Shown: positions 30,759 through 34,026 of the stretch, piece by piece
Layout: each line of letters begins with the position of its first letter
Position numbering within the stretch: the first letter of the stretch is position 1
NCBI RefSeq assembly: GCF_000682775.1
Contig: NZ_AWFI01000001.1
Span: forward strand, 248,001-312,000
Direction of reading: 5' to 3'
From: Hyphomonas sp. L-53-1-40
GTDB lineage: Bacteria; Pseudomonadota; Alphaproteobacteria; Caulobacterales; Hyphomonadaceae
DNA: 64,000 nucleotides
The notes under the pieces: model-generated
The model's input: only the letters and a program-made list of their open reading frames with translations
Database searches by the model: none
What the model was told of the DNA's origin: nothing
Translations under genes and position numbers: made by a program

Positions 30759-31814
30759 CTAGAAGCTCGGAAGCTTACCTGTCCCCATGAGGGGCATGGC
30801 AAAAGCCAGAATGATCGAAATAATGAGGCCGAGGAAGGCACGTCCGGCATCGCCGAGAACGTCTTTCACGGCCTCATTCTTTTCGCGCAGATGCGCGACG
30901 TAGGAGATCGCGAGTTCGCGACCGGCCAACAGGCCAAGGAATACCCAAGTCGTGCTCATCGGCACATTGCTGACCTCTTTGAACAGGAACAAGATGATTC
31001 CGTAGATCAGGTCGACGATTGTCGCGGCGCGGACATCCACCGTATTGATCTTGCGTTCCACAATCTTCTGAATCTGGCCGCCGCGCGTGGCGAAGATGTA
31101 GCCTTGGATGGCCACAAGCAGGACTGCGCCGAAAATGACGTAGCCGAGCGAGAAGGCCACATGCGTCTCGTCACCAGTGACTGTAACCGTCCGCGGCAGG
31201 TAAACGAAGATATTCGCCAGATCCTGCATCAGCCATTGTGACCAGAGGAAAGTCGTCGTCAGCCACTGGAATGTGATCCAGTAGGGCCAAGGCAATTCGT
31301 CTTTCGTATGAAAGACCCAACGCTCGAACGTGCGGGAAATTATTATCCAGATCACAGCGCCGCACGCGAACGCCACGACATAGCCCATTGCCGACTTGAT
31401 GATCATTTTCTCAAGGATGCCATCGCTGGCAGACCCGCCCGACAAGGCAAACAGGGTCAGCACCAGGAAGGTCGTCGACACAGGGATGCCAAATCGAGTC
31501 AGGAATAGCAGGACCAGTGGAGGCAGGGCGTGCCACCATTGAATGCCGGGCATCAGCACCGCGGTGCGATCCCCTTCACCGGGCAGCACAGACAATTTGT
31601 CGAGACGTTCGTAGGCAACGTCTCCCTGACCATTGAAATACCCGTAAAAGAGCACGGCCAGCAAAATTGCGCTGGCAAAAATCCAAAGGACCCACCAGGG
31701 ACGCTTTGCGTTCGAGGACAGGAACGTCCCCAGTGTCTGGATCGAATCATTCGCGACGACGGCGTAGCACGCCAGCATAAATCCAATGATGCCGAAAACT
31801 TCTACGCCACCCAT
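30759..31814 (-). CDS. PiT-like (inorganic phosphate transporter family) membrane protein
   Basis: This 351-aa protein has about eight to ten hydrophobic segments and an internal duplication seen in PiT permeases. The first half has AVVANDSIQTLGTFLSSN, related to the PiT signature G-A-N-D-V-A-N-A-x-G-T, and GIPVSTTFLVL. The second half has NVPMSTTWVFLGLLAGREL. The two P-x-S-T-T motifs are especially telling. The sequence is divergent from classical PitA, so the substrate (phosphate or sulfate) is inferred. A PHO-like repeat in the proper orientation lies about 72 nt upstream of the ATG. Confidence 0.7.
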   Translation of the reverse strand: MGGVEVFGIIGFMLACYAVVANDSIQTLGTFLSSNAKRPWWVLWIFASAILLAVLFYGYFNGQGDVAYERLDKLSVLPGEGDRTAVLMPGIQWWHALPPLVLLFLTRFGIPVSTTFLVLTLFALSGGSASDGILEKMIIKSAMGYVVAFACGAVIWIIISRTFERWVFHTKDELPWPYWITFQWLTTTFLWSQWLMQDLANIFVYLPRTVTVTGDETHVAFSLGYVIFGAVLLVAIQGYIFATRGGQIQKIVERKINTVDVRAATIVDLIYGIILFLFKEVSNVPMSTTWVFLGLLAGRELAISYVAHLREKNEAVKDVLGDAGRAFLGLIISIILAFAMPLMGTGKLPSF

Positions 31815-31917: not shown

Positions 31918-32980
31918 TCATTTTCCCGTCTGCCCTCTATGTCGCAACTTCGCGTCGGCCAGCACACAGGCGAGCATTGCCTCCGCCACCGGCACCGCAC
32001 GAATGCCAACACAGGGATCATGCCGTCCGACGGTCCGCACGTCTACCTCTTCACCGTCACGCGTCACACTCTGGACGGGCGTGAGAATGGAAGACGTAGG
32101 CTTGATAGCGATTCGCACGATAACAGGCTGACCCGTCGAAATGCCGCCCGCGATGCCGCCATTATGGTTCGACAGGAAACGGGCGCCGTCATTGCCAGTG
32201 CGCATCTGGTCGGCGTTTTCCTCGCCGGACAAAGCCGCAGCTGCAAAGCCTTCGCCGATTTCCACGCCTTTGGCCGCGTTGATGCTCATCATGGCACCCG
32301 CGAGTTCGCTGTCCAGTTTTCCGTATATGGGCGCGCCCCAACCGGCAGGAATCCCCGTCGCTTCGACCTCTACAATTGCGCCTGCAGAGCTTCCAGCCTT
32401 GCGAGTCTCGTCGAGAAAGGTCTCCCAGACCGGCACCATTTCGGCGTCAGGACACCAAAATGGGTTTGATTTGGTCGAATCCCAGCTCCATCGGGAGCGA
32501 TCAATCGCGTGCGGTCCGATCTGGACGACAGCGCCGCGCAAGATGATTCCGTCGCCAAGCACGCGGCGCGCCACCGCGCCTGCAGCTACCCGCGCGGCGG
32601 TCTCGCGCGCGCTGGACCTATTTCTGATCGTAGGAATAGTCGGCATGACCGGGGCGGTACCGATCACGGATCTCACCATAATCTTTCGACCGTTGATCTG
32701 TATTTTCGATCATCAGAGAGATGGGCGTGCCCGTGGTGACAGGGCCGCCGGTCCGGTCATCCTCAAAGACGCCAGACAGGATTTTCACCTGATCGGATTC
32801 CTGGCGCTGGGTCACGAATCGCGAGGTGCCGGGGCGGCGCTGGTCTAGGAATTGCTGAATGAAGGCCTCATCCAGCGGAAGATTCGGCGGGCAGCCATCC
32901 ACCACGCATCCGAGTGCGGGCCCGTGGCTTTCGCCCCAAGTGGTCACGCGGAAGAGGTGGCCGAACGTGTTGTGAGACAT
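31918..32980 (-). pseudogene. aroC: Chorismate synthase, disrupted by an apparent 29-nt deletion
   Basis: AroC makes chorismate from EPSP, the last shikimate-pathway step. The N-terminal part (32980 to 32618, 120 aa) carries [16 protein letters not shown] and [12 protein letters not shown], then hits TAG. The remainder continues in another frame as [17 protein letters not shown] to the normal C-terminus. In other AroC proteins ten residues of the type Y-G-x-R-D-Y-R-G-G-G lie between Q-K and R-S-S-A-R. Their loss leaves exactly 29 nt missing. With them restored the protein would be 363 aa, the family length. Either the gene is inactive or the assembly dropped bases. It follows mdh after 29 nt. 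Confidence 0.88.

Positions 32981-33009: not shown

Positions 33010-34026
<1,017 letters not shown>

Follow-up and report, generated by a model that had tools for sequence, protein, structure and literature searches.

Chorismate synthase, encoded by aroC, appears in two pieces in the genome assembly of Hyphomonas sp. L-53-1-40 (G000), which raises the question of whether the gene is broken in the cell or only in the sequence. The window, that is, the whole 64,000-nt stretch of DNA analysed here, corresponds to positions 248001-312000 of contig C1 of this genome, and aroC spans window positions 31918-32980 on the minus strand. An earlier note on this DNA had described an N-terminal frame that ends prematurely at a TAG and a family match that resumes in another frame, and this arrangement was confirmed to the base by the reading frames and the family profiles (Table 1).

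Table 1. Features of the aroC locus (window positions) and the named genes split by similar gaps elsewhere in the assembly (contig positions).
Feature	Position	Strand	Description	Support
N-terminal aroC (chorismate synthase) fragment	32618..32980	-	120 aa, premature TAG at 32618-32620	PRK05382 1-104, TIGR00033 1-105, PF01264 1-113
C-terminal aroC fragment	31918..32619	-	different frame, start of the family lacking	PRK05382 114-344, TIGR00033 114-350, PF01264 114-326
Junction of the two fragments	32618..32619	-	blunt, 29 nt of the relatives absent from the assembly	29/29 genus copies and 80/80 named loci
Malate dehydrogenase gene	33010..33990	-	intact, upstream of aroC	NCBIfam PRK05442, E 8.1e-170
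gyrB split	C1 near 218011 (L139)		22-nt out-of-frame gap	
hisS split	C1 near 117524 (L134)		22-nt out-of-frame gap	
gltX-family gene split	C18 near 175225 (L221)		22-nt out-of-frame gap	

DNA alignment to 29 copies from the genus showed that the assembled aroC is short of exactly 29 nt at the junction, which creates the stop, changes the frame and removes ten conserved residues, bearing out the exact loss that had been proposed from the window alone; the only other gaps of the window copy in this alignment are of 12 and 3 nt. Both fragments resemble the bacterial chorismate synthase AroC (PF01264, TIGR00033, NF003793/PRK05382), lying at the expected places and covering the family apart from the gap, and the C-terminal piece also matches solved chorismate synthases, e.g., 5z9a and 4lj2. 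The N-terminal and C-terminal family blocks are thus both present by PF01264 and PRK05382, but the assembly differs from the family in lacking the 29 nt and hence one open frame and the ten residues, and its sequence contains no continuous AroC frame with the conserved loop before RSSARET. The fault is taken to lie in the sequence and not in the gene. The available parts of the literature on the chorismate synthase loop say nothing about the role of these ten residues. When the whole genome was searched with PF01264, only the two adjoining pieces were recovered (E 8.8e-45 for the N-terminal and 8.7e-73 for the C-terminal one, out of 327 profile positions), and the search for a second aroC that the earlier note had suggested therefore found none. 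Among named plasmids, no same-species copy of the locus was present. The 351-aa ORF that adjoins aroC (window 30759-31814, minus strand) has no NCBIfam match at E 0.001.

The genus search covered 42 genomes, G000 included. In 37 of the 41 relatives, PF01264 1-326 was matched in one open, stop-free frame, and the other four (G033, G013, G031, and G016) gave partial matches, those of G033 and G016 sitting at the very start of a contig. Thirty relative loci were fetched, from which a start-motif filter took the 29 aligned copies and left out L031, and the 29-nt stretch is kept in every one of the 29. In all 80 named loci compared, which are the best 80 of at least 500 confirmed, the HAD and RET blocks lie the same distance apart, so that the comparison with related AroC sequences, also suggested in the earlier note, brought up no member with a shorter loop among them.

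A real, very recent deletion of the 29 nt would make the isolate an aromatic auxotroph, kept on rich medium or fed by its neighbours. Bacterial aro mutants can be maintained on rich medium, and this possibility has in its favour the lack of a second aroC in the genome and the conservation of the lost stretch in every relative copy examined (the best 80 of at least 500 named loci and the 29 genus copies), by which a true loss would most likely be inactivating. However, the signs expected of a genuine pseudogene, such as further lesions and relaxed selection, were found neither in aroC nor in the pathway genes searched. Outside the gap, comparison of aroC with its two nearest relatives over 352 codons gave a dN/dS of 0.024, and all pairs among five aroC copies range from 0.024 to 0.070, with dS above 1 in several. 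The rest of the gene is under strong purifying selection without relaxation, in agreement with the good conservation of its other parts that had been noted, and judged by its sequence it looks fully functional there. The pathway genes searched, which stand before or after the chorismate step, were all matched in open frames. They comprise two EPSP-synthase-family genes, taken from family and length to be aroA and murA, aroB, pheA, and aroE (N-terminal domain), together with two chorismate-binding genes of the trpE/pabB type; gene names within families were assigned by family and length. The auxotrophy once proposed has thus found no support beyond the sequence itself, the tested pathway genes being open and aroC being without relaxation.

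Within the compared parts of the window, aroC is the sole case of such a gap. When the ORFs of a second Hyphomonas genome, G035, were placed on the window, 44 of 49 were matched over at least 85% in one frame, aroC was split and four matched partially without a split; with those of H. atlantica (G002; NZ_AWFH01000001.1), 41 of 43 matched, the exceptions being aroC and one partial match. A single real event in aroC was first favoured on account of this clean window and was overturned by a wider audit of C1. In that audit, positions 1-612000 of C1 were compared with H. atlantica through 246 + 99 = 345 genes, on 1-297 kb and 301-454 kb, and with G035 through 49 + 101 genes; the compared stretch amounts to about 450 kb and the compared coding sequence to about 346 kb. 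Against the two relatives, 12 C1 genes lack between 16 and 29 nt, out of frame, at 12 places (16, 19, 20, 20, 20, 22, 22, 22, 23, 25, 26, and 29 nt). The comparison with H. atlantica alone gave out-of-frame gaps of at least 16 nt at 11 places in its 345 genes, and G035 confirms, within its own ranges, those of 29, 23, 26, and 20 nt. Five gaps were found with both relatives, that in aroC (29 nt) and those of 23, 26, 20, and 21 nt; the twelfth out-of-frame gap (20 nt at C1 438502) passed with G035 only and did not pass with H. atlantica, although the latter covers the range, and the remaining C1 gaps come from H. atlantica alone. C1 also has two in-frame gaps, of 21 and 24 nt, which fall within the length range of the 12 and may be natural or artefactual; there is one further in-frame gap of 12 nt. 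Two gaps at C1 2955 (16 nt) and 45600 (22 nt) were removed by the flank-identity filter and stand outside the 12. Mechanical STOP flags were not counted, since most of them presumably come from stop-to-stop ORFs that run upstream of the true start, nor were four "splits" in the reverse direction, with the ORFs of G000 on H. atlantica, which lie near ORF starts or in short ORFs.

The relatives do not show the same pattern. Compared with G000, they have four gaps of at least 10 nt (27, 27, 12, and 15 nt), all multiples of three and unchanged whichever side supplies the ORFs, and the comparison of H. atlantica with G035 (97-100 and 41-42 genes) gave four gaps of at least 10 nt (27, 15, 21, and 12 nt), again all multiples of three. 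In the compared genes, there is no out-of-frame gap of at least 10 nt in either H. atlantica or G035, whether against G000 or against each other. Losses of this kind therefore recur in genes of G000 that are unrelated to one another and are absent from the two relatives compared, as is expected of an artefact.

The broken genes were named by the NCBIfam and Pfam matches of their counterparts in H. atlantica and G035. On C1, they include gyrB, hisS, a PBP1A-family penicillin-binding protein, a histone-deacetylase-like protein, two histidine kinases, an MFS transporter, and an alpha/beta hydrolase, as well as three other genes of 693, 261, and 580 aa, of which the 693-aa gene has no NCBIfam match and the 261-aa gene has no match in NCBIfam or Pfam. 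The in-frame 21-nt gap lies in a phosphoenolpyruvate-carboxylase-like gene of 950 aa. Two of the broken genes carry particular weight. GyrB and HisRS are essential to bacteria, and a culture grown for sequencing cannot have both broken in all of its cells. At the equivalog cut-offs, no intact gyrB or hisS was found elsewhere in the genome. For gyrB, there are two pieces on C1 and one full-length match on C18 that falls below the gyrB cut-off (670.2 vs 882.4 bits) and is most likely parE; for hisS, there are only two pieces, of 271 and 70 bits, both under the equivalog cut-off, with all other matches at about 40 bits or less. Since gyrB and hisS are broken by gaps like the one in aroC, such gaps cannot be trusted as real deletions, and a real loss in aroC must be regarded as very unlikely.

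The missing stretches share a sequence character. Read in the relatives, the 12 out-of-frame C1 stretches have a G+C content of 0.715, compared with 0.597 for random stretches (P 0.0002), and a GGCNG/CNGCC motif occurs within the stretch or 8 nt on either side of it in all 12 cases, compared with 5.6 expected, a count reached in none of 5000 random draws. The motif was tested after it had been met in a report on Illumina sequencing, the available part of which states that coverage falls at GGCNG/CCNGCC motifs (PMC4872057). The missing stretches resemble that bias in being rich in G+C and in having the motif within 8 nt; they differ in that the available text reports drops in coverage and not clean assembly losses of 16-29 nt (PMC4872057), and its link to the G000 assembly is inferred. 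Predicted hairpins are mildly stronger than the background (14 events, mean percentile 0.25, KS P 0.017). Judged by eye, the two sides of a junction have no more than one or two bases in common, which argues against slippage deletion and against a false assembly overlap, and for aroC, too, speaks against a real deletion of the slippage kind. The examined stretches of G000 (612, 220, and 106 kb) are free of N.

The gaps are spread unevenly over the contigs, with 12 on C1 (about 346 kb compared), one probable case on C15 (190 kb), and one clear case on C18 (72 kb). On C15, where 183 genes in 190 kb were compared, the flank filter let through no out-of-frame gap; a probable loss of about 19 nt in one split gene appears as two alignment gaps in a poorly aligned stretch. 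Two more C15 genes matched in two frames were not counted, one showing a 1-nt difference near its N-terminal end and the other being a short, poorly aligned ORF. The comparison of C15 150001-370000 (L191-L201) with H. atlantica gave in-frame gaps of 12, 21, 21, 21, 24, and 24 nt; the reverse comparison gave none. The five longer ones show no bias in G+C content (0.604 vs 0.596), and these in-frame gaps may be natural indels, artefacts or the mark of a different error rate. On C18, 71 genes in 72 kb were compared with G035, and the clear out-of-frame gap, in the gltX-family gene (Table 1), indicates that the problem is not confined to C1; as evidence from an essential gene it is weaker than gyrB and hisS, since the genome may contain a second GluRS-type gene. 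Further gaps in G000 on this contig measure 13 and 16 nt (weaker cases), 30 nt and, in three instances, 12 nt, while no gap of at least 10 nt was listed in the other direction for the 71 genes.

The split of aroC is very probably a systematic artefact of sequencing or assembly, and the cell most likely carries a normal aroC in a single frame, a reading that draws its force from the like gaps that break genes essential to the cell. Of the two readings that the earlier note had offered, the dropout in a GC-rich GGC run is accordingly supported, by the recurrent gaps at GGCNG/CNGCC and by the hits in gyrB and hisS, and the very recent real loss with auxotrophy is not. Read coverage or quality may have been poor at G+C-rich GGCNG/CNGCC motifs, 16-29 nt would have been dropped at a time and the contigs joined without N, and such blunt joining of the flanks would make the genes there look frameshifted. 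The loss of unreadable bases followed by blunt joining fits best, despite two observations that count against an artefact. The losses keep to a narrow range of 16-29 nt, which matches no assembler behaviour that could be demonstrated, and the spread over the contigs is uneven, with aroC as the only case in the compared parts of the window.

The tight length range could instead point to a real genome-wide process, such as a mutator or damage in a non-viable DNA sample, that removes about 22 nt at a time from GC-rich motifs, and the motif and G+C bias and the somewhat stronger predicted hairpins would agree with it. However, cells in which gyrB and hisS are broken would not grow, aroC shows no other decay, and the motif bias equals the sequencing bias described in the available part of PMC4872057, so that such a process is highly improbable. 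Equally hard to credit is that the gaps truly exist in the sequenced DNA as microhomology-free deletions of about 16-29 nt at GC-rich GGCNG sites throughout the genome, made by a process active in the sampled culture that would disrupt even essential genes in some of its cells. A functional variant of AroC, made of two separate subunits or having a loop that is shorter by nature, is barely conceivable despite the good family matches of both fragments, because the length of the gap is not divisible by three, neither piece contains the residues and the spacing is the same in all 80 of the named loci (the best 80 of at least 500) and in all 29 genus copies.

The probable artefact in aroC bears on how this genome can be used. 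G000 is rated 99.94% complete without contamination, yet it contains repeated short gaps that break reading frames, so that its apparent pseudogenes and absent functions cannot be relied on. Hits of like gaps in essential genes, taken together with a bias in frame or motif, provide a cheap test for other findings of a "broken essential gene". For the biology of the organism, the reading of the aroC split as an artefact averts a false claim of aromatic auxotrophy in marine Hyphomonas.
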